This document shows, piece by piece, positions 21,250 to 60,450 of a stretch of 64,000 nucleotides of DNA (its first letter is position 1; every line of letters begins with the position of its first letter). Under the pieces are notes generated by a model, which saw only the letters and a program-made list of their open reading frames with translations, ran no database searches and had not been told where the DNA came from. This stretch comes from Clavelina lepadiformis (taxonomy: Eukaryota; Chordata; Ascidiacea; Aplousobranchia; Clavelinidae): contig NC_135244.1 in NCBI RefSeq assembly GCF_947623445.1, forward strand, positions 8,990,001-9,054,000. Reading direction: 5' to 3'. Both the position numbers and the translations under genes were made by a program.

Positions 21250-23804
21250 TTAGTGGCAAGCTGTTGTACAGATATCGCCCCCCTCGAAGTAATTGGAACA
21301 CTGAAGAAGTAAAAACATTGTTAGAGCTCCCAAGAATGACCCAAGCTGCACGACAGCTCCGTAAATCAACAAGCTCTGTTTGCTTCCACGTTCACGAAAG
21401 ATTTGCCCAATGGTAACCTTGACGTAAGATAGCACAGCCACGACAGCTATGAATGACAAGACCTGAAGAAATGTTTTCGATTATTTTTACCTACATTTAA
21501 GATATATAAATTATGGCCCTGTAATACACAGACTCTAAATTACCATAATAAAAGGTCCGGCAAAAGTATTCACCAATAGAGGACAAGGACTTTGTAAAGC
21601 AAGGTAGAATAGATATATTCCAAATGCTGCAAAAACCAAAAAAGTTATATTTTCATGTTTGGTTGGAGATTTCACTTTAATTTGATTTACGTAACCTGTC
21701 GTTGTAACTAGGCTATAAGTTTATTACGTTTAGCCAAAGACTATACCAGTCATAGTTCATTGAGCTTAATCACAATAGATGATTCAAATTACCTGTTCCA
21801 AGAAAAGACAAGCACCCGATACCCTGATAATGGCGTGTTGTTACAAACATCGCAAGAAAACACGCAAGCGGATTGGCTAAATTGCCAAGAGTTATCGCAA
21901 AATGATATGCAGTTTGTCCATAAGGAATGCAAGTATAGGATGAAATTGACGGCAACACGCCATTGGTGACAATGTTCGCCCAGAGTACTAGGCAGAGTAA
22001 ATAGAAGAAAGATCTGCTGTTTAACGAGGGAACACCTGATGACGGTGGCTTTTGTTGATCTGCTTTTATGAATTTGCTGCTTTCAAGATCAGTTTTTTTA
22101 CTGCTCTCTTTAACTTTTTCTTCCTTGCCTCTTATTCTCAATTTTCTTCTTTTTTCGTTTAAATTGTTAGAATTGTCCGACCAGCAAACTCTACACTGTT
22201 TTGCGAAGGACAGTGTGTTAAGTAGGACAAAGGAAATACTGCATAACATCATCATCAAAAACACAAACCCAAAGAACACTTTTTCAGAAAATCTAAACAA
22301 AACACAATTGTTAAATATAGCCTTGTAGATGGTTACAAAATTGTTTGTTTTGTCGGTTTTATTGAAGTAACATAACTTATACTGTAACTTGTAATTGTAT
22401 AAACTAAGTTTATACATTATTAAACACACTTTAATTATATAGCCTACCCAACGTTTAATTTTTCACCAACAACAGAAAATACACTGTAATTCTGTATATC
22501 CAACCTCGGTTCTTCATACACTGAATGTTTGGCATTTGTCGATTGGTTCCTGCTGACATTTACTGTGGATTCCTCAACACAATATGTTTTTCCGGCGCCT
22601 TGAAGAAGTGCTACAACGCTGGGAAATACTCCACTTAAGCCTTCACCAATGAAGAATGTTGTAAGAAAGGAATTTTCCAACTCAACCGTAAAAGGTAGAA
22701 ACGTTACAGATGATGTGCAATCAACGCATGCAAGAGCAAAGCTGCGAAAGAAAAAAGTAACCGAGATAATGGCAAGAAAATAGCCTGTAAACACGACATC
22801 AACATAATAACTTAGCCTATAACAATCTTCTTTGTGTATAAACATCGGCTTCTATGTGGTTAAATCCAATATTTTATTGGCAATTTACGGCTGTGTTTTA
22901 TATAAAGTATATATAGCCTTCTTTAGAAAAAGGAAAAACGATGTTTGAAAGTCATACTGCAAACAAATTTTATTACCACCGATAAATACTTACTGTATGA
23001 AATCAAATACTTACTATAGAATATATAAAGCCAAGCTAATTTCTCTGCCACCAACATGTGCCGTTTTGTCACAGAGAAATATTAGTAGTAGCGTTGATAA
23101 TAAACCCACGGTCAAAACTGAGTATATCACTAAATTCCGGTTGTACATTTTCGGGCGGAAAATCTAAAAAATTTCTTTTTACTAACGGTATCCGTTATTT
23201 TTAATAACGGTATCTATTACGTAGTATTAATGCGAGGTCAAATTTCGAACCACATTGCTACCGAGCCGATACATGCGCTACTGCTGCAACTCAAATCCGT
23301 TTGCTTGCATGTTATGTACAATTGTACATTACATATAGCCTTACCTACAAAATATCACTTGGCAGCACAATAATTTATGTTTTTGATTGCGGTGTGACCC
23401 AATGACCGGTAACATCATTAATCAACTCTATTGGCTTAGTAATCGATTTGAAAGCTCACTGCTCTGACCTTTGTATATTTTTTATATTATTTTCTAAAAT
23501 TTATCAAATGCGTCATGGGCCCTTGAAAGTTTTTGCACGGTCCACGGAACACTTATACCCTAGCTAGAAGCATACTATAGGTATCCTAAATTTTCCGTTC
23601 TTACTTTACCTGGACAAGTGTCACCAACAGCGGACTGATGTTGGCAAGCTGCGTGGTGATTGCTAATGTCGACGGAAGATTCCATTGTTCTGGAGACTTG
23701 ATCACCAGAATTGGCAATTCAACCCAAACCCCATTGATAGCAATCCACGATCCCATCCCAAAGAAGCACACTAGCATATGCACGGTAAACCTTTTCGGGT
23801 CCAT
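21250..23804 (-). CDS. SLC52A3: Riboflavin transporter, SLC52 family, gene 2 (477 aa, 6 exons)
   Basis: Exons 23804-23610, 23163-23015, 22741-22448, 22292-21793, 21626-21544 and 21462-21250 sum to 1434 bases including TAA. Introns fall at the same places and in the same phases as in gene 1, and exons 2 and 5 have identical lengths (149 and 83). Landmarks: [97 protein letters not shown] and [14 protein letters not shown]. The loop encoded by exon 4 is unusually rich in Lys/Arg/Glu ([16 protein letters not shown]). It is clearly a paralogue of the convergent neighbour, and in some motifs closer to the vertebrate consensus than gene 1. The function as a riboflavin carrier follows from the family. 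Confidence 0.95.
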
Positions 23805-32585: not shown

Positions 32586-33480
32586 TGGCAGTTTTTGTTG
32601 GAAGTTTTAGGTTAAATGTTATTAAAATTTTTTTTATTTTGTGTACATACTTAAAATATACAATATAAAAAAGGCCATCACTATATAACCAGAAAAAGGC
32701 ATACGTTTAAAGCTATTTTTATGGATTTTTGTTAACCTAACTTTAATTTATAACATAGTAACGTAAATCTTCCTTCTAATTTAAATTTAACTTCAATTAA
32801 ATCCTAAATAGCTTAAATCAATTTTTGCATCCCCATTCTTCTAACCTAGATGCCTATGTTTAACGATGGGTTGTGTAACCTACTTGTGGTGAAACAGTCG
32901 CTATGTTTAAAAAATGAAAACAATTACAAAACACGCAGTCTTAAACATAGTTTATCAGCTGTTGTTTTAAATCGGTTGCAATACTTGTCAAAAAAGATGC
33001 CAGACAATTCTTATGGTAATTTGGTTTTGTATACCCACCCCTAAAATTTTGGGCATGACAAACGAATAAATAATGTAATTACGAATAACACAATCTTGGG
33101 TTTTATGATAATTAATTCTGCGCAAACTTTAACTTGCTAATTGCAATGTATGTAAACTGCCTCTAATCATAAATTTATTGATCAACATTGTTTACTGTAA
33201 TATGAAAAAGGGAGTAAGGACAGTTTTTTCATGCAAGTGTCAGTATGTCAACTTGTATAAATAGCTGGTTAGTGATTACTTGTTTATCTATTTATCCATT
33301 GGTGAAATATTTTGAACCAATCATACACAGTACTGATTAGAAATCTTGACGTGTTAATTTTCACACTCCATAATAAACTGTAAAAAAAATTTAGTCTAAC
33401 TACTAAATACATAAGAAGGAAATAGAGATCATACTTGAAGCGATGGGAAATCGTATTCTACTGTTGAACATTTTAATATC
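32586..33480. other. Region upstream of PSMD14
   Basis: AT-rich, no exon recognised. The promoter and any leader exon of PSMD14 would lie here, but no element could be singled out. Confidence 0.35.
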
Positions 33481-33486
33481 AAATCT

Positions 33487-33502
33487 ATTTGTTTCTCCAC
33501 AG
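33487..33502 (+). other. Splice acceptor just upstream of PSMD14
   Basis: Pyrimidine-rich tract ending ...tttctccacag, 49 bases before the start codon at 33552. It suggests either a 5' UTR intron or a spliced-leader trans-splice site, which is common in tunicates. The sequence alone cannot distinguish the two. Confidence 0.55.
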
Positions 33503-33551
33503 ATACACACTAAAATTTAGTCCTATTATACATAACATAACCCACAGAAAA

Positions 33552-34487
33552 ATGGAAAGATTACTCCGAATGGGTGGTAGTGGTTTAGGAGGTTTAGGCC
33601 AAGCGCAAGCAGCAGATGCACCGATGGTTGACACAGCTGAGCAGGTTTACATATCATCACTTGCTCTTTTGAAAATGTTAAAGCATGGGCGAGCTGGCGT
33701 TCCAATGGAAGTCATGGGTCTTATGCTTGGAGAGTTTGTTGACGACTACACAGTACGTGTGATCGATGTCTTTGCAATGCCACAGTCTGGTACTGGTGTG
33801 AGTGTGGAGGCTGTTGATCCTGTTTTCCAAGCAAAAATGCTTGACATGCTCAAACAAACTGGCAGACCAGAAATGGTTGTTGGCTGGTACCACTCTCATC
33901 CTGGATTTGGATGCTGGTTGTCTGGTGTTGATATAAACACACAGCAAAGCTTCGAAGCTTTGTCAGAGAGAGCAGTTGCAGTTGTAGTTGATCCAATTCA
34001 AAGTGTAAAGGGAAAAGTTGTAATTGATGCTTTTCGATTGATTAACCCTAACACAATGGTCCTTGGACAGGAGCCTCGGCAAACAACATCAAATCTAGGT
34101 CATTTGCAGAAGCCATCTATACAGGCTTTAATTCATGGCTTAAACAGGCATTATTATTCAATTGCAATCAACCACCGTAAGAATGAACTCGAACAAAAAA
34201 TGTTGCTCAACTTACACAAGCAGAGCTGGATTGACAACCTCACACTGGGAGATTACTCAGAGCACTGCAAAATGAATGAAAAGACAAGTCAAAACATGCT
34301 GCAATTGGCAAAAAACTACAAGAAAGCTTTGGAAGAGGAGGAAAAAATGACTCCACAACAGTTGGCAATAAAAAATGTAGGAAAGCAAGACCCAAAAAGA
34401 CACCTCGAAGAAAAAGTAGATAGCTTGATGACATCAAACATAGTTCAATGTCTTGGTGCTATGATTGATACTGTTGTTTTCAAGTAA
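33552..34487 (+). CDS. PSMD14: 26S proteasome deubiquitinase Rpn11/PSMD14, single exon (311 aa)
   Basis: Almost colinear with human PSMD14 (310 aa) from MERLLRMGG to the C-terminal MIDTVVFK. The JAMM metalloprotease motif is intact: the conserved glutamate lies in [10 protein letters not shown], and H-x-H-x7-S-x2-D is present as [14 protein letters not shown]. This subunit sits in the proteasome lid and removes ubiquitin chains en bloc from substrates before degradation. ATG 33552 was preferred over the upstream in-frame extension because protein similarity begins there and an acceptor lies between. The coding region has no introns, whereas most other genes in the window are heavily split. 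This suggests intron loss or an old retrogene that replaced the parent; the sequence shows no decay. Confidence 0.98.
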
Positions 34488-43453: not shown

Positions 43454-44429
43454 ATGAGTGACTTTGGTCCATCTGTTCTTGGGACACTTGGTTACTGGGA
43501 TGGTATTTATCAAAAAGAATTGGAAGATTTTCGTGACAATGAAGACCCTGGTACAGAGTGGTTTGGACACAATGTTGCAAAACGTATAGTAAGCCTCCCA
43601 AGCAGAATATACCTTAACTTTTCAAATTTTTAGTAGATAACTGATATTATACACTTAATGGCCTGCATGGTAACTTGTAATTTTTGGCAGGTTAAGTGGG
43701 TAAAAGAGAGCAATATATTATCAAAAGAATCTACAATCATTGATATTGGATGTGGCAATGGTCTCCTACTTTTGGAGCTTGCCAAACTTGGATACACAAA
43801 CCTATGTGGAGTGGACTATAGCAAAGGTTGGATTACAAATTAATTTACTTGGTGGTAACAAAGAATTTTAAAATTGGTTATAGAGCCTGAAAATATATTC
43901 TTTACAATATAAGATTAACATTATGCACAGCACTTAGAACAGCACTTTACTATGCATAAATAACTGGTTTGATTCAGGAGCACTGAAGTTGGCCAAGAAT
44001 ATTTTTAATCATGAAAAAATACCTGAAGATGTTGCAACATGGTTGGAGCTTGATATCACGAATCAAACAATCGTGGAATCTGAGAATGAACCAGCGATCA
44101 TGAAAGTTTGTAGTAAGTCAAAGCTTAAAGAGCTCGGTTGTCAACCATACGCATTTGACCTGTGCCTTGATAAAGGAACATATGATGCAATCAGTCTTTG
44201 CCCAGATGATGCCGTTTACAAGCGCGCATGTTATATTGAGCAAGTCAAACAATTTCTTTCTAAACGCTCTGGAATTTTGCTCATAACATCCTGTAACTGG
44301 ACCACTGCTGAATTGCTAAGTCACTTTATGGACTTTAAACTGCTTGAGGAACTTCCTGCACCTACTTTTACATTTGGTGGAAAGACTGGAAAAACAGTTT
44401 CCAGTTGTGTTTTTAAGCTGTTGGCGTAA
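43454..44429 (+). CDS. EEF1AKMT2: eEF1A lysine methyltransferase 2 (METTL10), 3 exons, 240 aa
   Basis: Exons 43454-43588, 43691-43826 and 43978-44429 (723 bases with stop; phases 0 and 1). The protein starts MSDFGPSVLGTLGYWDGIY, matching the SALGTREHWDAVY opening of human METTL10. The SAM-binding motif I is IDIGCGNGLLLLELAKLG and is followed by GVDYSKGALKLA. The seven-beta-strand methyltransferase continues with LCLDKGTYDAISLCPDDA and LLITSCNWTTAELL, ending LEELPAPTFTFGGKTG. The human enzyme methylates Lys318 of translation elongation factor eEF1A in the cytoplasm. The stretch between motif I and LDKGT (WLELDITNQ...KLKELGCQPYAF) is longer than in the human protein. Its 3' end faces SMC2. Confidence 0.94.
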
Positions 44430-44559: not shown

Positions 44560-47500
44560 TCACTTTTTCTTCTGTTTATTGTTAAGTTGTAAAGTGTTTG
44601 ACGAAGTTTTGTTTGAACTTGACTGTGTGTAACGTGAAACAGTGGACACTCCATCCAGAAATCTTGTTCGAAACAGTACATTTGCGTTGTTGAACATACC
44701 ATCTTTCAGAGACACAACAATAAACTGTAAATAAATGACGTTTAAACTGTAGCCCCAGTTACAGTCGTACTATAAAATTAACAATATCATGATCAAAATG
44801 TATGACACATACTTGTGAGTGCTTAAAATGTTCGCGCAACATTCCACCGATGTTTTGTGTGTGTGAAAGATCTAATGCAGCATCAACCTCATCAAGGATA
44901 TAGATTGGAGCTGGTTTCAAAAGAAGCATTGCTAGTATAAGTGACAAAGCAACCAACGACCTATAAACAATAAACATATTCACTTTTACTAAACTGTTAA
45001 TGTTAAGATTTGTCAATGCCCCTTGAATTTTTTTACAACATAGATCCCTCAGTAGTCTTGAGAGAAAGTTATGAAGTGATTCATAATAAAAATTTATAAA
45101 AGAATGTTAGACAAGTGCAGCGTGTGCGAAAGAAGGTTCTGTCATTAGACTAAGATCAATGATTGGGCTTATAATGTTCAAGCGATACACTGGAATAAGC
45201 TAATAACAAGAATAGAAGTCATTTCACTGGTACATGCTTCCTGTTAGCCAAACATCATCAGGGAGTGAATTTCTTGATAAACAAATCATGTTTTTACCAT
45301 TGTCTTATCCTGTTTCTCTCCTTTGCAAAGCATAGAAATATGCCACAACAAATCATTTATGAAATGATCGTCACAAGTTCTTTCAACTGAGCAAGCTCCA
45401 GCCCAACCAGCAAGTACGATAAGCTTATCAGTTATCATTCACTGTGTATTTTATACCTTATATCAGGGATGACGAACCTATTCGTTGTTGCGGGCCACTT
45501 AGTTAGCCACTGTCAGTAACAGCTGAGTATGCGGACCGCACAACTATCAATAAATCTATTGAAGACATATACTGCAGCAACTCAATCGTGCTATATCGCG
45601 TTGCGCAAAGATTAGAAACATGTCAAAGAAAATTCATGACTGCTGGTCTCCTGGAATACTTCGCCATGCAAGAGCGATTGTTCAAACCGATCCGCATATT
45701 CGTCACCTCTGCCTTATATGAACAACAAAAATTTACTGTAAACAAAAACTAAAAAAAACAAGGTTCAGCAACACATGCTGTATAAATAAGACCGATTGCA
45801 GTACCAATAGCAGAAAATCTGTTCATAGTTAAATCAAATCGATTAGGGCAGACGTTTCCAAATAAGGCATTGTGACAGACTGATGCATCGTTTAAACATT
45901 GCAAAAGCATTGTAAGCCTAGATCCACATTCACTAACAAGATTTTAAGGTTTTAGAAAAACCTTAGAAAGACTGGTGAGACGAGAAATTGCATTGGGGAT
46001 GAAATTACAAAGTTTAGTAGTGATATATCATGCTCCCTAAAGCTCACAGAATCCCTTTGAAAACTTTTTGGAACACTAGTGTGACCTGTCTGAAAATCAA
46101 ACAACAGCAGAATGAATAAAGCTTTATACCTTTGCCCACCACTAAGTTCATTTAGGTTTGTCTTCCACACGTCGCCAAAGCCAACTTGAAATTCAAGACC
46201 AGCAAGAACGTTGCTACCCTCTGTTGGTGCCAGCTTTGCGGTTGCTCCAGGCAGTAATGTTGAAAAGATTGTACCAAAGTTTTTATTAACCTGCAGGCAG
46301 ATAAATAAAAAAATAAAGCACTAAAGTTCCTGTTTAAATATTTTGAGTTAACTGGATAATTTGAAACAACTAACTTAAAATCTTGTTGGAAATCACCTGA
46401 GCATATGCCTTTGTCACAGCTTCGTTTTTCATTTGGTCAAGCTCTTCGATAGTTTTCTGAATTTTTGCTTTGTCATTTTCAACTATTTTCTTCTTTTTAA
46501 TCAGTTCATTATACTGCAGAATTCAAGATTTTTATAGTTAGGTGCTAATTCAAACAAAAGTAACTTTTAAACACGTATTGTACCTTTTCTTCAGCTTTCC
46601 CAAGCAAACTCATTGCCCGCATGTTAACAGAATTCTTTAGCTTTTCCAATGTCTCTTCCAATTTCTCCAACCTTCTGGAAACTTCTTTTGGGGGATTGGC
46701 TTGAAAATCGTATGGAGAGCCAGACTTTCCAAATAAACTTTTCTCATTTTCTATCCATTCATATTCCTCCAGCATTGCAGCTACCTGACGAAATTCATAC
46801 GGTATTGTATTACCAGAAAAAGAAGTCAAAGCACACTATCATGACAACATTGACACCTTAACCTTTTTATAGCAAACTGAAAAAGATGTCATACTTTGTT
46901 GGTGGCATCTTTGCTATCTCGGATATGTTTTGTGATAGCAGATTCCTGATGCTCAAGTCGTTTTTGACAACTGCCAACCTCACCCAGAATGAGTGCCCTC
47001 TCTTTTACACGTCGTTTAATGTCTCTGTTTGCACTTTGTACATAGTCACGTTGTTTTTGAAGATCTTTTTTTGCTGATTTCACTGATTCCTGACATAAAA
47101 TTCATAAAGTCAAGGAAATCAGTATATAATAATATAAAATATTGCTAAACTGAGAAACAGTCAAAGGTGGTTAACATACTGAAGAAACTTTTGCAGTTTC
47201 ATTAAGGGTTTCAAAGACTTCTTTAGCATGTTTGATTTTCTCATCTGCATTTGTAATCTGGTTCTCGTATTGTTTAAATTCTTCTTCTAATTCGTCAATT
47301 TCCATTTTCAACGTGTTTAATTCCTATACAACATACACCATTAAAGATAAACCTTTAACTCCAAAATCAATTAAAAAATATCACTAACTTCACGCTTTGC
47401 TTCAGCAGCCTGATTGCTTTTTTCAGCTTGTTTTCCAGCTTTATTCATTTCAGTTTGAGCCTTCTTCAATTCTCTTTCCCTCTCAGCTGGAGCATCAGCA

Positions 47501-50500
47501 AGTTTTCTTTCTAATTCTTTAACCTGGGTTTGATAATTTGCCATCTTTTCCTGGAAGGTGGATAGAGTTTCCTCACACGAAGCTAACAGAGATTAAAGAT
47601 AACTTTTTCAGTTATATAGTACAATTAACAGCCATGTATCCTATTACCTTTTGTGGTCTCCAAAGAATTAATTTGCTCCAGAATTTGGCCATGAGTACAA
47701 GCGGCTAACCTCTGTTGCAGCATTTTTATTTCTCTTTCTTTTAAATCAACCTGGTTTCTTAACTCCCGGTATCGTTCTGCTTTGTTAGATTCATTTGAAA
47801 GTTTTACTTCCAATTTTCTCAAGTCCATCTGCAATTGATAAAAAATAAAATCACCAAGTTAAAAAGAAGTGTTTAAAAAAAACCTGTAAAGAACTTTAAC
47901 ATGTACTGCACCTCTGCTTGTGTTAATTCTTCTTTGCAAGATTTAGTTTTCTTTAATTCAGCCAGAACAGAATTATTCCTAGGTCGCGACCCGCCAGATA
48001 AGGTACCAGAAGGATCAAATAGTTCCCCTGCCAAAGTGACTGTTCTTGCTTTTATCTTTGGATCAAACGCCACCTAATTTAAGAAAGCCATTTTTTCAAA
48101 ATTGAAGTTTTTCCACATAAATCTTCACCATAATTATAAAAAATATTCTTCCAAATTAATTACCTTCTTGGCACAGTCCATATTATTACAAACAATCGTG
48201 GTTCCAAAGACATATTCTAAAGCTTTGCTGATTTCCTTGCCTCCAGACACCAGCGAGAGAGCTAAGTGAGCATTGTCTTTCCCAACCAAGGCCTTGGCAT
48301 GGTTTATTTTCTGGATTAAAGAAAAACATTGCAGAAAGTTCACAAAAATATTTAATTGTATCATTGTTATATACAAGATATAACAATGGTTAACACAGAA
48401 AACTCGAGTCTGGTGGAATGGGTGTACAGTGCTTAATTACCTCAGTAGTCAGTGACCGTGCAGCAACTTTATTTAAAGGAATAATAGTGACCCTTCGTCT
48501 CAGCTGCCCTTGCTTCAAAAGCATTGAACCAGTTACATGATTATCTACAACAACGTTGTAGAGTCTTCTACCAGCAACGATCTCCAATGCTAAAAAACAT
48601 AAAGGGTTTGTTTAAAAACACGCTACGCAATCTGTAGTTTATGCAAGTGGCATACAACCTGTTGCATACTTTGGGTCTTCAATGTCAAGCAACTCAGCTA
48701 CCATACCCTTTATTCTATTACGGTCCCAGTTCTTCTCAGGATCTCTAAGAAATCGAATGACAATGATACCAAAAACAATATTCTAGTAGAGACTAGAGAT
48801 TAGGATGTTTCATTTTTTCACCATTTTGTAATTTAAAAAAGCTTGGGGTCTCCCTAGGCGGTATTTTGGGCACAATGAAAGAATCTAAACTTTTTTTTGA
48901 TTTATGACGTCATTTTGAGGTTGCAACCCCTTGTTGAAGTTTCAGTGGAGGTGCATTGTTCTAATTTGGCGATATCTTGGTAACCGATTGAGCTAGGGCC
49001 ATTATCAAGGTGTCAAAAGATGCAGAATGGCTGGTTTCCTATAACCACTCAATTCATTTTAATTGCATTTTCGCTCTAGAAAAAAAGTTATTTGAGAAAA
49101 ACCTAAGTTTTGACATATTTTGTATGTTGGGAACTACATTGTGATTTGCATACAAAATATGTCAAAACTTAGGTTTTTCTCAAATAACTTTTTTTCTAGA
49201 GCGAAAATGCAACTAAAATGTATTGAGTGGTTATAGGAAACCAACCATTCTGCATCTTTTGACACGTTGATAATGGCCCTAGCTCAATCGGTTACCAAGA
49301 TATCGCCAAATTAGAACAATGCACCTCCACTGAAACTTCAACAAGGGGGTGCAACCTCAAAATGACGTCATAAATCAAAAAAAAATTTAGATTCTTTCAT
49401 TGTGCTCAAAATACCGCCTAGGGAGACCCCAAGCTTTTTTAAATTCCAAAATGGTGAAAAAATGAAACATCCTACTAGAGATATTGGTTGTCAACTCCGT
49501 TTTACTCACTTGTAATGAAATTGCAGACTTGGAAATTTGTTATAAACATTTTGAACTTCTTTTCGCAGATGAGCAATTTTATTAGCCAAGTCTCGTTTTC
49601 GCTTATTCAGTTCTTCCTTCAGACCCTCTGTACATTGCAGCGGTGAAAGAAAACCCAGAAAAAGATAACTAAATGACAGCAAAGCATAAAAGCTGAAATA
49701 CCTTCATAATTAAGTTTTTGCAGTTCCGCCAATAATTCTGAATGAACACCTTGAGCTTTTTTCAGTACATCTTCATCAACTTTGTACGTAGCATCTGTCT
49801 TTTTTAGTTCAGACTGCTTGGACTTCAGTTCGTTTTTGATATGCTTTAATTTCATTTCACTCTAAAAAAAATTTACAAAAAAATTTGAAAAATAAATTTC
49901 AAACTTGATAAATTTATGCAAAACATGATGCATTTACCTGCTTCTTGTCTGTCTGAAGCTGACTGATATCTTTTTTAGCTTGTAAGAGCTGAGCATTCCA
50001 TGATGACTCTTGACCATTGTCAGCATTTGCAAGTCCAGCGGTAACAGCCTTAAACACAATTGTAGTATGGCACATAAAGTGATATATTTTTTTTGGTGCC
50101 CAATGCTGGCTTAAGGGGGTACAGGCAAGGTTGCTTATGTTATTAATTGGTGCCTGATGTATGACTCAAATAAGTCAACTGTTTGGCATCTCCAACAGGA
50201 CCCTGTAAACTTAGTAAGTAACGATCAGCATAGGAAAATTTAAAACATTACTTCAAAATGTTTCTGAGCAGATGAAAATTCATTAGTGTGCTTTGTGCTT
50301 TCCTGTTCAGCAACTTTGCATTCTTCTTCTGTTTTGATGCATTTCTGTTTGTTGGCTGCAACAGTGGTCTGGCACTAAGAACAAAATGTGTGTGATGTAA
50401 TTTTATTCCTTAATAATTTTAATTTAGTTGTAGACCATCAGTTGTATGCTGTGAATGTTTTGAAAAATATTGGTGAGAATTTGAAAACAAGTCAGTAATG

Positions 50501-53500
50501 GCTAAACTCACTTCTGCTTTATTTTTCTCCAGATTCTTCAACGCTTTATTTTGTTCATTGATTATCTCTTTCTGATTACGTAAGTTTGCATGTGCCTTAG
50601 CATCAACCTTTTCTTTATCTCCAAGAACATTTTCCAAATCTTTTAACTTGTTACCAGCTTCCTAAGCAAATAAACAACAATAAAATTTAAAAAATCACTG
50701 GGACCACTATGAGAACAAAAATATATATACTTCATTCTATGTTAAAGTGATTATGTTAACAACAAAATTAAATGATATAAATTTTGAATTGTTAACTACA
50801 ATCACTTACATTATCCAAACTATTTTCCAATTCAGCAATCTCCTTGCCCATGACCTCATATCTCACTTGCAATTCATCTTGCTGTAACAGCAAAAATTTC
50901 ATTGCATCTATTGTATTCTATGCTCACCCAACGATAATAACATTAAAAAATTACTTTTATACAACTACTAGTATATATTACAGGTCCACCGAATATATGG
51001 CAAGCTGAATATAAAAATAAATTCAAAAATCGAATATTAAGGTACTTCTAAAAACATGCCTGAAAATTACTTCATTGCAAAAAAACTATAACAACAGTAG
51101 ATAAAGTTGTTTTTGCACGTAACAGGAAATTTACGTATATTTCCGTTGCAAGTTACAACTGAGTAAATGATACTTTGATTAAAGTATATATTGTATTTCT
51201 TCAATTATATAAATTGTAGTGTATGGGCATTTTTTTGTTCTTTTTTGTCATAGGAATACTTGCAATACTGGATTGCAGGATTCGGCCGAAATAATTTGGT
51301 TACTTTTTCCACAATACGGTTTTGAACCGAATCCAAAAAACACGATTCTGTACACCCCTAGTAAATATACGTGTAATGAAACATTTAACTGGTCAGTAAA
51401 TAAGCGACCTCATTCTCGATTTTGGCCTTTTTTTCATTCATCTTTTCAATTTCATCGGAGGCAGAGCTGGCAATCTGATCAGCAACCAAGAACTGATGTG
51501 CAATCCGCAACCTTGAAAACCGTTCAACTTCACGTTGAATCTTCTGATACTCTAAATAAGAGGATCGCTCATCTCGTAATTTTTGCAAGGTTGGTGTAAT
51601 CTCTTCATTTAATGTCTGCGTAAAAGGTACAAACTTAGAAAGAACAAAAAGTACCTGAAAATACACTGGTACAAGTCGTACAACAGTTCAGTGTAAAACT
51701 GAACATCAGTTGAAACTTCTTATATAACTTTGTGGAAAAGAAACAAATGACAATTTAAGAACTTCCACAATTTCAAACTTTTAACCCTGTTTATGTGCGT
51801 AAGTTTGTTTTCTTTCTTCTCTATCATCCGTTGTGCTGACTCTTTCTTTGACTCATACATGCTCGTGCCAGTCGCTTCTTCTATCATAGACAATATTTCT
51901 GGAGGTTTCATGTTCATAACCTGAGGTTGATAAACATGAACATAATTATAGGGTAGTGCAGACCATCAAAATAGGTGTTAAAAGTATGAAAAGAAACACA
52001 TGATAAATCCTCTGAACGACATATATATACATACAATGTAACTACAAAAGACTTATAAGTTATTAAAAAACATGATTTTCTTGTAAGTTCAAATTTTTTT
52101 TATGTATTTGTTTCCATGTTCAAAGAAATTAAGCTGTCAAAAAAGGTAAGTCATTAAAAAAATATATGGTGTCATTTAATTATTTCATGATGAAGCTTAT
52201 CAAAGCATTCAATGGCGTCTGCAGAATCCTAACCAACAGGATATTAGTCAGGAAGTAAAAATCATCTGCAATTACATAAGCCCATTCCAATGACTAAATA
52301 AAGGCCCATGAAAAACTATTAATCATTTCTACCTGCTGAATATCAGTAAGTTTAGTTGTATCAAATCAGGGCAAGTATTTGAATTAGGAACAATAGTTAC
52401 ACACATACATACAATTTAGGAATATTTTCACCTTTGTCACTCTCCCTTGCATAATTAGGAAGTGGGGATTATTGACGTTGAGTCCTACTGAGCGAAAAAG
52501 GTCAGACACCCGAACATTTTGAGCATTGACTCCATTTATGAGGTACTTATTTCTCCCACCAATAACAATTTGTCTGGTAATCTACATAAAACAAACCGTA
52601 TAAGGTCAAGTACACTAGACCTCACATACAGTGATAGATATATATACAGATATATATATACAGTATAATGAATAACAAATAAAACGTCTAGTTTAGATAG
52701 TTTTCCATTCTTTTAAGTGTATTTCAGTCTTGCATATAAATATATACAACAAATCAATTATGTCGTTAAATCAATAGGAGTATTTGTATAATGAAGATTA
52801 TATAGTTCGGTCTTGGTGGCTAACTAATTTATCCATCAACTGCCAAAACTATAAATTACTGTGATTTCATTGTGAGCTTCCATTCCAATAGGACTTTGTT
52901 CTTTGTTGCTGTTGTCAAATGTGATTGATACGGTGGCTTTGTTGATTCCAGCCTGCCCATTTTTGTAAACAAGATCTTGCAGATTAGTAGCTCGAACCTG
53001 GACCAAAAGCAAGAATGTAAATACATGAACATGCAATATTCGGTTTTATTTTCAAGATGCCAACATGCTTATGCTTTGGACATTTTTAACAAATGCAACT
53101 TAAGAAATTATTGCACAAAATATACCTACTTCGTAATTTCAATGAAGTCCAATGTTATATTTTGTTCAGTATAAAACCATAACTAGTAGTGACACTATTT
53201 TTGTACATAGATGAAAATAATACACACTTAGGCATGCAACTGTTATCATTGACGAAGTAACAATGACGTACAATGAATCATCAGCACGAATGATATCTTA
53301 TTTGGTTGCCCATTTGGCCTGTGTGACTAAACCCTCTCTGCAACATACTCTGTCCATTCATCTCATGAAGAATATAAAGACACAGCCAATGAATAATGTG
53401 ATCAATCAGGTCTACTTAATAATTGCAAAACTGACAGCAGATAGACATGGAAAACAACATTAATACTTGGATGCGGCAGCCAAATACTTCCCTTGAATAT

Positions 53501-56500
53501 TACGTTGAAGCAAACAAAGCAAATGCTACAACATATCAAGCAGCAAAGCTTGCCTGCGAGAAATTTCAAAGCATTTTAGCATCCGTTAATGATAACGCAA
53601 CTCAGCTGTTTCTAGAAAGAATCATACCACAGCCACGAGCTAATAGCAGTCTAACAAGATTCTACTGGATAGGAGCACATCGAGCATCAGGAATAAATGC
53701 TCCATGGCTGTGGCAGGACAACTCAACAGTTAACTACAGCAAATGGAGTACATCAGAACCTTCCAACGACACTGAAAATTGTGTATCTATATTCTCAGTG
53801 GACAAGTTTCGATGGTATGACAATCATTGTGAAACTAATGACTACGGATACGTTTGCCAGAGAGATGTAGCTGGTGAGTGATGATCAATTGGTCAGGATA
53901 TAATTTAAGATAACTGCACAAGAAGTGAAAGTAAATGTATGTTTAACTTTGGTGTTAAACAAAATAAAACTATCTTAAAACTACTGTGGTGCTGCATCAT
54001 TTTTTAGAATTAACTACTACAACTTCAACCAGTGGATCAGACACAACATATAAGTCGGTTACCACTGTTTTATCAACAACAGGCAAAGCAACTGCAGCTC
54101 CACAAAGCCAATTTCCAGTTGCACAAGTTGTGGCACCTATAGCAGTTGCTCTTATCTTGTTGGTGATCATAATAGCAGCTGTGTGTGTTTACAAAAAACG
54201 GTAATAAGGAGTATAACATTACTAGCAGATAGCTTGGCAACAAAATAAACCAGACACAATTATTATTGCAGAAGACAGCAAGTTAAATGGTCAGCCATGG
54301 CAACAGACCGATCAACTGAAATCCCTGTAACTCATTCCGTAGTTACTGCTCCTCGGCCAGTACTAGAAAGTACCTCTTCCAATAACAATGTATCAGTTGA
54401 AGCTGGATATGTAAATAGCCCAAAATACCAAAGTATTAAGTGTCAAAATGAAAACGGCCACCATATTCCTGGAAGTATTGCCAATCCCAACTATGAAATG
54501 GTTCAATTCGATAAACAACGTTCACAGTATGTGAATTACAGGAATGGTAAGAGGTATTAGCAAACAGTAATCTTACATATGCACAATGTGCATTGCACAT
54601 ACATAATTGCTAGATAATAATAAAAATGCATCAATAAATCGTCAACTAGTATTGTATAATATAATGTACAGACAAGTATTCTATATTGATATATCATCAG
54701 ATTAGTGATGAAGAATCACTTTCAGTAAGTAGAATGGTATAGCAGGCAGGTATACAAAATGTAGAATTTAAAAACGTTCAGTTTCTTGAGAATATGAATA
54801 ATAAATTTTGAAGCTTTTGCAAATTTGAATCTTTTAACTTTGCTCATTTCGTTAAATCAAAGCAACTTAAGAGCAAGAGAATCAAACCTGTCGTCTTATT
54901 GGTCAATGAAAGAAATGAACTTTCTTTTTGCTTAACCAAATTACCCATAGTTTTCACAACCAATTCATTATCATGCAATAATTTTTTGCACTAAACAACA
55001 CTCGCTTCAATACAACGATACCTATTGTAATGTACATGTACAGTATATTATGAAGTCATAACAACAAACCTCATTCAAATATCGGTTCAAAGATCTTGTT
55101 TGTCCTGACACAGGCCACAAGAGCGGAGTAAAATATCACGTCAACAAAGTCTTTTCATTTTATTTCCTAACTCACTGAAACCTTTGTTTCCTCAAATCCT
55201 AGATCCCATAAACGGTTTTGTTTAATGCTCTGTTCGTAGATAAACTTGAATTGTTTAGTTAGGAATACAGCATTTTGCAGCTAACTCTCTTGCAGCACTT
55301 GCCCCTGTGATTCTATCTTTCTTTTAAAGCATTCTGTAAATTATACGGAATTCAGCTTCTTACATGTTTCACATCAGAAATTATGATGTAGAGAAATTAA
55401 AAATAAAAGTTAATGGTGGATTGCTATCCAATGTACTGCTTTTTTATTTCATTATAGTATGCTGCACTGGGTTAACACAGTTCAACGACCAGTGTTTTCA
55501 TTGAGGTTTCACTAAGAACATCACATTGTAGCATTCTGCAATGTCCGGCTTATTACGAGGATAATATGATGATTAGAAGGTGTTGAGTTTAGAAAAATCT
55601 CAGCGAAGTCAATTTTGCAATGTTACAATATTTTGTTAGAGTTGCAACTGACCACACCTATCTTGAGTAATAGTAAAAACTTAAACTACTTTCAAGCTAC
55701 CTTTCCCATGTCTACATGTGCTTTTTACCCATTTTCTTTGGAAAATAGAAAGGGCCCGAGTCTCTTTTCTCAACTTGAGTAAAAACTCTTAAGGGGGTTT
55801 ATTGAAAACTGAAGGGCAGTATAATTAAACCGATAAGAATTCCTACTTTCAGTGAAAGCCCTGGACTGTGACTGAAGAAGTAAGCAAATCACACGTATAT
55901 TAATAGAGATTATGTTTTTGCAGATAATGAAACACATCAAAAACCACCTTCAAATTCAAATCAAGTTGAAGAAACTTATGTTGATATCTACAGTACATCA
56001 AGCAAAGCGCGCAATCAAAGATTGTAAAAAAAATGGATATATATACCATATATACTGGCGTATAAGCCCCTTTTTTTGACGGTATTGTGTAATTATTGGG
56101 CCTTTAAGCAAGCATATATGGTACAGTAGAATTCGCCTATAGTGACACCTGAAGAGACCGCGGAAAAAGTGTCACTATAAGCGAAGTGTCACTATAGACA
56201 AAGTCAAGGTAAAATGGCCGCAGATGACTACAGTAGAACTCGCATATAACGGACCAGTCGGGACCAGCGAAATTTGTCCGTTATATGCGATATCCGTTAT
56301 ATACGAGGTATTTTACATTGTTTTCCTCAAAGGGACTGGAGAATTAGTCCGTTGTATACGGTTATTCGTGATACACGTGTCCATTATATGCAAGTTCTAT
56401 TGTACATAGCGATTGTTGCTAGATCGACAAACTATACAATGACAATCAACCTGATCACAACTCACAAGAACAAAAGCCTGGAACAAGGCTAGCAGCCACA

Positions 56501-59500
56501 GTAGCCTACGCTTTTATTACATCACAATTATGAAGCCTGCTCATAAACCTTTTCTATCATCTTGCTTGCGCATGGATAAAGTATATATTATTGCATCACA
56601 AACTAACGAGTGTCCTTATACGGAAATTTTTGAGCCCAAGGGACAGAAATGTGGTGTCACTATAAGCAAAGTGTTCTTATACACGAAGTCACTATAGGCG
56701 AAGTCATTTCTATGTAAAACATATGGTTTGCAAACGAGACTTTGCAACAGGTGTCACTATAGGCAAAGTGTCACTATAGCCGAAGTCACTATAGGCGAAT
56801 TCTACTGTATATATATATATATATGGAAGATATGATACTAACTGCATTCTTGTGATTTTTGTCTTTCAAAATTCTGTAGTGTTACCTCTCGCAAATATAT
56901 TACACAGGAAATGAAAACAACTTACATTCAACTTAGTGTTGCATTAAACCAAGCTTCAAATCAAATGAAAGTGAATTTATTATATTTTTCTAATCTGCAT
57001 CATTACATTGCACTTATTTGTTATATATGTACAGTATGCATTTAGCTTTAATAAAAGTACATATGATACAGTGTCAATATATAGGCCATAAACAATTAAA
57101 CGGTGTTTGAAAATGAATCGTTTCCTTATCAATACCAAACTGTTCTTTGTTTTGATTTAAATACAACATATGGTATTTCGTGTGGCCAGTTTGCAAAATT
57201 AGCAGTCATTTGGGTCAAGTAAATACTAATAATTCGTTAAAACAAACTTCTGTTTTGAATTTATAAATGTTTGGATGTAATTAAAGAAACAACTCAAAGA
57301 AGATTTTAATTATAATCTCTCGTGAAGGTGAAGTCAATTAGTACCCAATTTTTTGGGTGAAAATAAGGTGCAAACAAATGCACGATAGTAGAGCATGCAC
57401 ACAAAGTGGAGTTGACCAGATTCAATTCAAAGTACATAAGATACGTTTATGTACAGTATATATAATAGTTAATTAACACAAAAAACAATAAACACCTTGT
57501 TGTTTTTAGTTAATTTCCTACTTTGGGGGATTCCCCGAAAATAACTTTCAGATTGACAAAATTATTAATTTAGGCAATGCCAATAATTATATAGGTACTG
57601 AACACCACGAACTGTTTTTAAGTTCAAGTTCATAACGGTTGAGTCACAGCAAGCTTAGCCCAGGGCTTCTCAAACTATGGGTTATGGCGCAAATACGTTA
57701 TTTTGGGTTTGCAAAACAAATTCAACTTTTATAAATTGAATTGTTTTTTTTTAAATATTTCATTCACTTTGTTGTTTCCATTATGCGGTTCTTTTATTAC
57801 TGTACAGTTACTTTTGTAGATTGTGTGCATTTGTATGATTTTCGCCATAGACAAAAATACCACTCGAGATTTGTGATAGCACCTATTATTAATTATTATT
57901 AACACTAGAACAGCCGAGGTGTCGAAATCGACACTTTTTGAATTTTGATGTATATTTTTTTTAGTAAAAGCAGTTGCAACGATATATAAAATTTTCAGTA
58001 GCTTCCTAACTTTCTTGAAAGGGTATGGATAAGTAACATTTACCGAAATTTGACTTTCGATTTATTTTTTACAACCTGTTATATCTTCAACGGCCGAGGT
58101 GTCGAAATCGACACCAAGATGATTTTAGACTTTCAGTAGACTACAACATCTTTTTACTTTGCACGATTGCACTTGCAACTAACATATATATACTTGAGAT
58201 TAGCCCAGTTTTTATCTTTTCAAGTGATTGTTTATCTCATTTAGTTACAGCTTTTACGGAGAGTGACATCCTAAACGTACTTTGTCCATGTACATTTGCA
58301 CAATACAAACTTGCTTTGCAGCGAAGGCGAACTGTAAAATGCACACGACAGTTTTTGTGCAACGTATGGATTGTATGCCATACGCTATTAGCAGAGCTAG
58401 GCTTTAAACTGTACAGTAGGCTAAAACAAAACAAGGTAGGCGTGGAAGTTTTCGACCAAACGGCGAGAAAATACACAACTCATGCAGCAAGTAGACGATG
58501 ACCTTTGGCTGTTTGGACAAAACTACTGGACATAGTAGAGCTAAATTCCTGGATTCTGCACAGAAAATGTTTCGGTAGCAAAATCAGCCGACGAAGCTTC
58601 ATACTCCAGCTTACGCAGGGGTTGAGGGATGCTTACACGGTGAAGCGGAAGCAGGTGGTCCAAAGAGAAGTGAACCCAGCGCAGAGAAGACCATCTGGAA
58701 AGCGAAGGAAATGTGCGGAAGAAAGTCGTAAAATTATATAGTTAGTTTGAAGTCACTGTAGCAGGCCAACTTGCGGATTGTGTGGTAACGGCGGCTGGAA
58801 ACTTACAGAATGCAAAAACTGCACGACGTAAATAGATCAACATGGGTCCTGCTGTAAACTCTAAAGACTTATCACATTGTGTGTGAGAAACATATGAGCT
58901 TTTTCTGCAATAGTTAGCGTTTTGTTAAGATACCTACCATCAGAATAATGATTGTTTATGTTTCAACTCATAAATTTTTTTCTTTTTCGTTTCTTACAAA
59001 TGTGTGCAACGTCATCAAAAGTAGAATTGCTGTAGCAATGTTAGTTTTTTTTCTCTACTGAACAAACAAAATACATCCTAAATTCATTATGGAAGTATTT
59101 AGTTTTGAGTTTTTCGCTAAATTAAATCAAAAAGTATATATATTCATTTTTAAGGATGGTGTCGTTTTCGACACCACCGGCCGTTAGAGGTAAACTTGTT
59201 TTCCGGCCGTTCTAGTGTTAATGTGTGGGCTATCCATAAAAGGGTGGCACAGAAGTTTCTTTTTTAAAATGGGTCACAGGAAAAAAGTTTCAGATGCCCT
59301 GGGGTAGCCTATTTAACTATTTGTTATTTAGTACATGATCGAGTTAAACTAAATATGAAGTTTCTCTGATCAATCTCAAGTTCATTGTAATGCAGGCTGT
59401 AAAAAAATTAAGAAATTTTTATTGCAATGGTAATAAAAAAGCACTAAAACATGGATATATGCCATGATATGATTTTATATTATACTGTATATAAAATCTA

Positions 59501-60450
59501 AAAACAAATTATAGTTGTATTTAATACATAAGACATAAAATTTGAGTTTACATTTTTAAACTCAAATTTAACATTTTTCAACTTTGAGGTTAAGTTAGTC
59601 CAAATGATGAGTTTTTTGAGTTTGCATCTCTGATTTTTGGTTAGAAATCCTGTCTTGAATGTGAACTGAGGTTAAACCATTTCATTAAAAATCCTTTATT
59701 CAATATAATGGCAGGAAATTATTCTTTTGATTTAAGCCAATGTGTCTTTGGAATTGCCCCTCACTTTAAGTAAACTATCAACTTGCTAAAATATGTTTAA
59801 ATTACTAGCATCCTTCAAATTCTTTAAAAAATTCCTTGCTGATGTCAATAACCAAAGAATATAATATTTGAAACTTAACAACCTTATGCCCACAATGGGG
59901 GTTAAAAGGACATGTTCACCTCTACAATGGTGTTAAAATTATGTACGCGTTAAAACTGTGTAGTTACATATTGCATGTGCCTAAAAGCTACTTCAACAAA
60001 GATTAAGAGGTTAGAAAACTCTGTTTCTGAAACAAATATGTTCATTATAAAACTTTAAACCGGTTTTTCACAAAACTTGGTTTAAGGCATTTTAGTTTAG
60101 TAGTGACAATCTTGCTCACAAGATGACCGTATTCTGACCCTCGATAGAATTAGTTTGGGTACTACTACTAACCAAGGGTAAGTATCATACTACCGGTATT
60201 CAAAATTATTTACAATTCACAGTATGCATTCACAGTCAAGCATGTATTATTATTATCACTTCAGCCAACAGCAACAACAAACCTGTGATAAGTTTGTTAT
60301 GCCGAGCAGAAAACATATTGCATCCAAAATATTTGATTTTCCACTTCCATTTAATCCAGTTATAGCATTGAACTGAACATCAAATCCATTTATTTCTGTA
60401 CGCTGTGCATACGATTTAAATCCATCTATGGTGATACCTTTTATGTGCAT
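44560..60450 (-). CDS. SMC2: Condensin subunit SMC2, 24 exons, 1193 aa
   Basis: Exons: 60450-60283, 52997-52860, 52581-52432, 51920-51786, 51615-51409, 50881-50810, 50661-50512, 50374-50252, 50048-49938, 49861-49702, 49627-49510, 48744-48659, 48589-48441, 48310-48164, 48073-47912, 47828-47648, 47582-47389, 47323-47180, 47089-46895, 46784-46584, 46513-46397, 46290-46130, 44960-44813, 44724-44560. Every junction keeps frame and the total is 1194 codons; human SMC2 has 1197 residues. The N-terminal ATPase half carries [19 protein letters not shown] and Walker [10 protein letters not shown] (32-40). Coiled coil flanks a hinge ([11 protein letters not shown] to [13 protein letters not shown], exons 12-15). 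The C-terminal half carries the LSGGQR signature (exon 22, completed in 23) and Walker [23 protein letters not shown]2 pairs with SMC4 in condensins I and II and compacts mitotic chromosomes. Intron 1 (52998-60282) contains another gene and nested transposons; introns 11 and 22 contain hAT elements. The C-terminal tail (about 20 residues, Ser/Asn/Lys-rich) is lineage-specific. Confidence 0.97.
45464..45711. mobile_element. hAT-type MITE (248 bp) in SMC2 intron 22
   Basis: Left end CAGGGATGACGAA, right end (inverted) CAGAGGTGACGAA, flanked by the exact 8-bp duplication CCTTATAT (45456-45463, 45712-45719). GCGGGCCAC and GCGGACCGC follow the left end. No coding capacity. Confidence 0.88.
48801..49474. 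mobile_element. Palindromic (foldback) hAT-type element, 674 bp, in SMC2 intron 11
   Basis: The two halves are nearly perfect inverted copies of each other (arms of about 325 bp, loop about 49126-49148), starting TAGGATGTTTCATTTTTTC and ending with its inverse. The exact 8-bp duplication CTAGAGAT (48793-48800, 49475-49482) fits the hAT preference nTnnnnAn. Only scattered differences separate the arms (e.g. T/G at the AATTTAAAAAA block, AATTGCATT versus AACTAAAAT). No coding capacity. RNA from this intron would form a very long hairpin. Confidence 0.93.
53447..56027 (+). CDS. C-type lectin-like membrane receptor inside SMC2 intron 1 (4 exons, 332 aa as modelled)
   Basis: Exons 53447-53873, 54008-54200, 54272-54546 and 55924-56027, with phases 1, 2, 1. 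Residues about 15-140 form one CTLD with the four canonical cysteines (LACEKF, ENCVSI, NHCETN, YVCQR), WIG in FYWIGAHR, an EPSND loop where Ca-dependent lectins have EPN, and WYDN at the WND position. A Thr/Ser stalk (143-178) precedes one membrane helix (about 180-204, [19 protein letters not shown]) and a basic stop (YKKRR). The tail has Y253VN, Y259QSI, NPNY281EM, Y293VN, Y296RN, Y317VDI and Y321, resembling SH2/PTB docking sites. No signal peptide follows ATG 53447. An acceptor (ctgacag, 53431-53437) sits just upstream, so a 5' exon with the signal probably exists and was not found. Ligand and pathway are unknown. Confidence 0.85.
54547..54638 (+). other. Alternative short 3' end of the lectin receptor
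   Basis: If the donor at 54547 is not used, the frame continues GKRY and stops at TAG 54558-54560. AATAAA occurs at 54619-54624 and 54633-54638, 60-75 bases later. This would give a 302-residue form lacking Y317 and Y321. Confidence 0.45.
56124..56807. mobile_element. pogo/Tigger-like element (684 bp) in SMC2 intron 1, host of a nested MITE
   Basis: Left end CAGTAGAATTCGCCTATAG and the same inverted on the right (...CTATAGGCGAATTCTACTG), flanked by TA (56122-56123, 56808-56809), as in Tc1/mariner-pogo elements. Both subterminal zones consist of short degenerate repeats of GTGTCACTATAGGCGAA type (at least four near each end). No transposase remains. A (TA)n microsatellite follows directly on the right. 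Confidence 0.85.
56231..56402. mobile_element. MITE (172 bp) nested in the 684-bp element
   Basis: CAGTAGAACTCGCATATAAC on the left and, inverted on the right, CAATAGAACTTGCATATAA, with TA flanks (56229-56230, 56403-56404). Internal TCCGTTATATGCG palindromes. Same family as 29640-30156. Confidence 0.83.
57903..59217. mobile_element. piggyBac element (1315 bp), internally decayed
   Basis: Flanked by TTAA on both sides (57899-57902, 59218-59221), the obligatory piggyBac target. Inverted ends CACTAGAACAGCCG and CACTAGAACGGCCG differ at one base. Subterminal palindromes GGTGTCGAAATCGACAC occur at about 57917 and 58099, with the variant GGTGTCGTTTTCGACACC at about 59158, possibly transposase-binding sites. 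It carries a transposase remnant at 58316-58831. At about half the length of an autonomous element, most of the transposase is deleted. Confidence 0.92.
58316..58831 (+). pseudogene. piggyBac transposase C-terminal remnant
   Basis: One frame reads [22 protein letters not shown], given here in parts KVGVEVFDQ and [12 protein letters not shown], then a stop at 58499-58501 where the family has Trp (RRW; TGG changed to TGA), then [20 protein letters not shown] and SRRSFILQL. After stops at 58739 and 58748 the same frame ends with a cysteine-rich tail ([14 protein letters not shown] and TECKNC). This is the order found in piggyBac transposases (VDxxDQ...RRWP, NAW, C-terminal zinc-binding domain). 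The catalytic core N-terminal to it is missing. Confidence 0.85.
59818..60113. repeat. Dispersed repeat A, copy 2 (SMC2 intron 1)
   Basis: Colinear with 12970-13262 in the same orientation. See that entry for the shared blocks. Confidence 0.6.

Follow-up and report, generated by a model that had tools for sequence, protein, structure and literature searches.

The question raised by this locus is whether a lectin-type receptor gene that lies on the opposite strand within the first intron of SMC2, a condensin gene, is a working gene. The DNA analysed is a 64,000-nucleotide (nt) stretch of Clavelina lepadiformis (NC_135244.1, positions 8,990,001 to 9,054,000 of the forward strand), which we call the window and whose own numbering is used throughout. 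We consider it likely that the nested gene is real and belongs, as a diverged member, to an ascidian family of type I receptors with a C-type lectin domain, and that it works in the ordinary way. All four exons that we identified lie inside SMC2 intron 1, provided that no further 5' exon stands outside it. The host intron is defined by the following features.

52998-60282, minus strand: SMC2 intron 1 (the host intron), 7,285 nt, with GT-AG boundaries read from the sequence
60283-60450, minus strand: first coding exon of SMC2 (MHIKGI...TNLSQ), with a Pfam SMC_N match (2.5e-18) and a match to solved SMC2 from residue 1
52857-52997, minus strand: SMC2 coding exon 2, a block matched by sequence to SMC2

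SMC2 is represented on the minus strand by 18 matched coding blocks spanning 44563 to 60450. Exon 1 ends at 60283 (CAG/GT on the minus strand) and exon 2 starts at 52997 (AG/GTT). When a 197-residue protein, joined from exons 1-4 with an approximate exon 2-3 junction, was compared with the PDB, the best match was 9f5w_A (E 2.4e-101), with residues 1-195 of the query lying on residues 1-195 of the chain, and the same query matched other SMC proteins far more weakly (SMC3 5.3e-24, SMC4 1.8e-19, SMC1 2.3e-18). Since the match begins at residue 1, the exon at 60283-60450 is the first coding exon and no coding stretch is missing between exons 1 and 2. The boundaries given for the intron in the initial annotation were confirmed to the base. 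The annotation had also named the possibility that exon 1 actually lies closer to exon 2; on checking, the two exons were found to be joined across the 7,285-nt intron with nothing coding between them. A single copy of SMC2 was found in the genome, the seven matches being the four local exons and three other places at 30-50% identity. The largest other gap between its matched blocks is 1,166 nt, which makes intron 1 unusually long for this gene. Elsewhere in SMC2, another intron contains a near-perfect foldback of about 670 bp (48801-49474), whose two sides pair in exactly matching stretches as long as 82 nt. Beyond the end of the gene at 44563, a plus-strand frame (43938-44429) ends about 130 bp away, so that the two are convergent neighbours; we take this frame to resemble the C-terminal end of a lysine methyltransferase, and it gave no Pfam match.

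The exons of the nested gene are the following.

53447-53873, plus strand: lectin exon 1, the C-type lectin domain with seven N-glycosylation sequons, ending in phase 1 (Pfam Lectin_C, PDB matches, codon score)
54008-54200, plus strand: lectin exon 2, a serine/threonine stalk and a transmembrane helix (about 54118-54192) followed by basic residues; phase 1 in, phase 2 out
54272-54546, plus strand: lectin exon 3, the cytoplasmic tail with YVNS, YQSI, YEMV and YVNY (frame, splice sites, codon score)
55924-56027, plus strand: lectin exon 4, the tail end (YVDI) and stop (frame, splice sites, codon score)

Together these exons give 332 codons and a stop, 999 nt in frame from 53447 to 56027, and all three introns are GT-AG, which bears out the intact frame and splice sites claimed for the gene. 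Coding potential was evaluated with a codon score trained on 2,403 codons from other genes of the window and expressed as the fraction of a noncoding null at or above the value observed. These fractions were 0.0045, 0.0020, 0.0055 and 0.040 for exons 1 to 4, and the codon usage of each exon also scored above that of its two other frames. The lectin domain was recognised by Pfam Lectin_C (PF00059) with E 2.6e-16 and 60.7 bits (cut-off 22.6), covering profile positions 3-107 of 107. Moreover, 49 distinct PDB sequences matched it, headed by whole-chain values of 2e-28 for LY75, 2.1e-27 for an IgY receptor, 4.4e-23 for PLA2R and 2.3e-19 for the mannose receptor; these values sum several lectin domains, the best single LY75 domain giving 1.2e-4, and the single-domain chain of CD23 gave 4.9e-10. 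The gene is single-copy. The DNA from 53001 to 56030 matches itself and otherwise only stretches shorter than 200 bases, and for the stalk-to-tail protein no other genome match was better than E 0.017.

The chromosome also carries, about 6.3 Mb from the nested gene, a cluster of similarly built relatives (C5:15.29-15.32 Mb). Searched against the genome, the lectin exon gave seven matches (itself, two at C5:15.30-15.32 Mb and four on C8), and PF00059 gave at least 142, with 150 of 291 candidates scored. A motif scan of the minus strand of C5:15288001-15324000 revealed eight lectin N-half exons with the lead-in EY[LYF][VI]E, and an EYxVE-type lead-in is common to these relatives and the nested gene. 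In half of the eight, the frame itself begins with a start that resembles a signal peptide, with a W and the lead-in a few residues on, and the other four are preceded by a linker, like internal modules. In local alignments the nested gene is 26-46% identical to its relatives, the best N-half match being 46% over 54 residues. Nine hydrophobic segments were listed in the cluster and three transmembrane-like exons were read, the third being cut by the stretch shown; both readable ones have the same phases (1 in, 2 out) as nested exon 2. In addition, several copies share non-canonical calcium-site motifs with the nested gene, and one relative has a tyrosine-rich candidate tail exon, the candidates in the other three stretches being unconvincing. 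We read this likeness, rather than a tree, as a sign of common descent. The cluster differs from the nested gene in two respects, namely in the signal-peptide-like start of four of its eight N-half exons and in an intron that splits the lectin domain into N- and C-halves in separate frames, whereas in the nested gene the domain is a single exon, which has no such start. As a separate observation, lectin-domain matches on C8 of the same assembly (G000) at 18653899, 18693259 and 18714992 recur at 18733372, 18772732 and 18794409, an offset of about 79.4-79.5 kb, which suggests a large recent tandem duplication of that lectin region.

In an alignment of six sequences, C37, C112, C128, C137, W87, W100, W123 and G76 of the nested lectin domain are invariant; the domain is of the short form, without the first-strand cysteine pair. 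Calcium-dependent sugar-binding C-type lectins carry EPN or QPD together with WND. At these positions the same alignment places EPS and WYD in the nested lectin, and the C5 relatives vary at the same calcium-site position (WWD, WYN). A sugar bound through calcium in the classic way is thus an improbable ligand. The exon-1 protein contains 7 sequons against 2.45 in shuffled sequences (P 0.0032), the ectodomain 7 against 3.16 (P 0.021) and the tail 2 against 2.46 (P 0.75), and the basic KKRRQQVK stands directly after the membrane helix; both observations agree with a lectin domain outside the cell and a tail inside.

In the family, a signal peptide is followed by a lectin domain, a stalk, a single membrane helix and a tyrosine-bearing tail. 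The nested gene would most likely have a promoter of its own that is active in some cell type, and our guess would be haemocytes or epithelium. The lectin domain would face outside and bind a ligand, and the tail could recruit SH2 or endocytic adaptors through its Y-x-x-hydrophobic and Y-x-N motifs. The transcripts of SMC2 and of the nested gene would have the template in common and no exon, so that each would be spliced from its own precursor.

Several observations weigh against this reading, and most of them concern the two ends of the gene. The model begins at the ATG at 53447 without a signal peptide. Signal-peptide likeness was judged by hydrophobicity and by eye: the best 8-residue hydrophobicity is -0.08 in the nested exon versus 3.38, 2.48, 2.88 and 2.85 in four relatives, and nested exon 1 aligns with the mature start of the relatives (TWYRFSGKEYYVE in a relative), with no signal peptide preceding it. 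Moreover, a scan from ATG to donor over the plus strand of 44.4-53.4 kb uncovered no convincing upstream signal exon; none of the 10 weak candidates combines a good donor with a plausible signal peptide, and a stricter scan from 36 kb returned two candidates, both upstream of 44 kb. At the other end, the nearest AATAAA after exon 4 is only at 57050 and the nearest ATTAAA at 56943, and exon 4 is the weakest exon by codon score. A read-through of exon 3, unlike exon 4, is followed closely by polyadenylation-type signals:

54547-54638, plus strand: possible alternative 3' end, read through from exon 3, with a stop at 54558-54560 and AATAAA at 54619 and 54633

Because this AATAAA pair contrasts with the lack of any for 1 kb after exon 4, the gene may have two forms, one with the long tail and the other, from the read-through, a possible shorter receptor isoform. 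The tail motifs themselves exceed shuffled sequences only weakly (three YxxPhi, P 0.09; three YxN, P 0.028), and their enrichment is suggestive only. Finally, the AlphaFold model of the protein is poor (mean predicted local distance difference test, pLDDT, 63.6). C-type lectin domains ranked first when it was searched with Foldseek (CD23, E 3.5e-5), but the template modelling (TM) scores by query stay at 0.40-0.47 in the 50 rows listed out of the 101 matches that reached E 0.001 or lower, and no conclusion rests on the model. Thus, of the receptor architecture described in the initial annotation, the lectin domain, membrane helix and tail stood and a signal peptide was not identified. The description of the gene as complete-looking is not supported, given that half of the C5 N-half exons have a signal-like start that the nested exon lacks and that the upstream scan was unproductive.

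The least bad of the signal-exon candidates, at 53290-53397, has a hydrophobic start (2.36), a weak phase-0 donor (score 3.2) and a borderline codon null fraction (0.0735), and it would require an intron of 40 nt. Its hydrophobic start is expected by chance, since 76 of 298 noncoding ATG frames reach an 8-residue hydrophobicity of at least 2.2. The candidate at 52538-52576, with a phase-0 and fair donor, was rejected because it overlaps SMC2 exon 3 in antisense and its codon usage is poor (null fraction 0.836). Hydrophobic starts at 53263-53463 are in another frame and, being matched by the same 76 of 298 noncoding frames, are not evidence; TATA-like sites at 53170 and 53373 were given no weight, the DNA being AT-rich. 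Immediately before the ATG lies one further feature:

53438-53446, plus strand: stretch between possible 3' splice sites and the ATG, as read from the sequence

Here, CAG acceptor-like sites with a weak pyrimidine tract stand 6 and 9 nt before the lectin ATG, and they may be cis or spliced-leader acceptors.

Ciona has the same 16-nt leader, which is spliced to at least 58% of expressed genes (PMC7986045). A search for the Ciona spliced leader followed by GT, with at most one mismatch, gave 857 forward and 705 reverse matches (1,562) in the present genome, and the backwards control gave 0 and 0. Most of the 100 places listed stand in a tandem array on C6 (12.14-12.23 Mb, including L043, G000:C6:12159142-12160700), whose 745-bp unit, 99.6% identical between two adjacent copies, carries a GTAAGT donor and an Sm-like motif. 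The array copy of this motif reads AGCTTTTG versus AGCUUUGG in Ciona (PMC7986045), and differs from the Ciona form AGCTTTGG. The four dispersed matches that were read (L020-L023) have no Sm-like motif in the 60 nt examined and may be chance or decayed sites. To judge by these matches, the spliced-leader exon is a mark of an ascidian-type genome. Searches for GH6, as a sign of the tunicate cellulose synthase, and for COX1 returned no match in this assembly; the GH6 control likewise matched nowhere, whereas that for COX1 matched in 8 of 14 genomes.

The host intron also contains two repeat elements.

56122-56809, strand not assigned: inverted-repeat element of about 690 bp with 25-nt perfect termini and TA flanks (termini and genome matches)
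57898-59222, strand not assigned: element of about 1.3 kb with TTAA ends, near-identical inverted termini and a broken reading frame (termini and genome matches)

The former, which we take to be a pogo/Tigger-like miniature inverted-repeat transposable element, recurs over at least 600 of 698 bases, with 82-98% identity, at seven other places, and also in partial form, among the 92 matches listed (40 of 174 candidates scored). For the latter, presumably piggyBac-like, 40 of 113 candidates were scored and 48 matches listed, of which 32 are further near-full places with 91-95% identity; its two open pieces gave no Pfam match. Two insertions indicate that the intron is open to insertion and that its content is fluid.

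The 5' end of the nested gene may be accounted for by a hidden signal exon, a spliced-leader start, a signal-anchor start or recent decay. The missing start fits a young pseudogene, that is, a recently decayed or 5'-truncated copy that has lost the signal-peptide start seen in half of the C5 N-half exons and now begins where their mature protein does. Yet the frame, the four conserved cysteines and the splice sites are intact despite the distance from the relatives, which argues for selection on the nested gene, and all four exons are coding-like, so the decay would need to be recent; we regard this account as unlikely. Somewhat less credit is given to incomplete nesting or a mismodelled 5' end, with the signal exon placed further upstream within intron 1, within a different SMC2 intron or outside SMC2 altogether; were that exon outside intron 1, the lectin gene and SMC2 would be interleaved. 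The acceptor-like CAG sites point this way, as do the candidate at 53290-53397 and the nested lead-in, which appears to resemble the linkers of the four C5 exons that look like internal modules. However, that candidate needs a 40-nt intron and has a hydrophobic start expected by chance, its counterpart at 52538-52576 is antisense and codon-poor, and all 10 candidates of the scan are weak. A further reading is doubtful to a greater degree: the ATG at 53447 would be the true start, with a spliced-leader acceptor 6 nt before it, and the receptor would have lost the signal start and the lectin-domain intron of its family on entering SMC2 intron 1 and would reach the surface by using its own helix as a reverse signal anchor.

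Selection might also have kept the pair together since long ago as a regulatory unit: transcribing SMC2 in dividing cells would then repress the receptor, or transcribing the receptor would shorten SMC2. As the initial annotation had pointed out, the opposed geometry implies that SMC2 would be transcribed antisense across the receptor; this is common to hundreds of animal gene pairs and is not surprising in itself. The fluid content of the intron speaks against a selected unit, and so do mammalian nested pairs, which show no added expression divergence according to PMC8467205, although the same paper states that Drosophila nested genes do. We consider such a unit very improbable. An ordinary, working receptor gene of the ascidian family thus remains the explanation that we prefer.

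Elsewhere in the window, an RPN11/PSMD14-like proteasome deubiquitinase is encoded at 33477-34487 in one uninterrupted frame of 336 residues (Pfam RPN11_C, 7.2e-36), possibly a retrogene. Two SLC52 riboflavin transporter fragments stand in opposite orientation (17491-18186, plus strand; 21770-22462, minus strand) and are perhaps an inverted gene pair. Rfam gave no matches within the window at the gathering threshold.

Among known receptors, the mannose receptor/LY75 family (MRC1, LY75, PLA2R1) provides the best whole-chain sequence matches of the nested lectin domain. Its members have many lectin domains as well as cysteine-rich and FnII domains, whereas only one lectin domain was identified in the nested gene. 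Like the nested gene, CiCD94-1 of Ciona is an ascidian lectin-domain receptor thought not to bind carbohydrate, but the CD94-like receptor is described as type II (PMC5465252), and the nested gene is type I by layout. Among the open-licence papers listed for lectin receptors of ascidians or with tyrosine motifs, there was nothing that we recognised as the nested gene.

The arrangement itself is routine, given that nested structures hold 4.3-8.7% of protein-coding genes across seven vertebrates (PMC8467205), and in C. elegans ceh-10/polq-1 is accompanied by 566 other opposite nested pairs (PMC12274878). Drosophila 2mit, which lies on the opposite strand in intron 11 of tim2, likewise encodes a membrane receptor with motifs in its cytosolic part and likewise has a chromosome-stability gene as its host; no functional link to that host was found for the circadian light response. 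It differs in its leucine-rich repeat ectodomain, in a nesting maintained among Drosophila species and also found in honey bee, and in having a known function (PMC3786989). Vertebrate LRRTM1-3, also receptor-type genes of the cell surface, each occupy a large intron of an unrelated alpha-catenin gene in opposite orientation. These encode neuronal adhesion proteins and are nested in most jawed vertebrates (PMC3933685), whereas the lectin/SMC2 pair is known here from one genome. No paper joining SMC2 with the term "nested gene" was found in the open-licence literature, subscription papers being outside its scope. The present locus documents a receptor gene inside a condensin gene in an ascidian-type genome, links it to a cluster of lectin receptors elsewhere on that chromosome and would lend itself to studying whether genes for proliferation silence the surface receptors nested in them. 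Opposite-strand nesting of receptors is well documented, and the lectin/SMC2 pair is a new case of this known arrangement.

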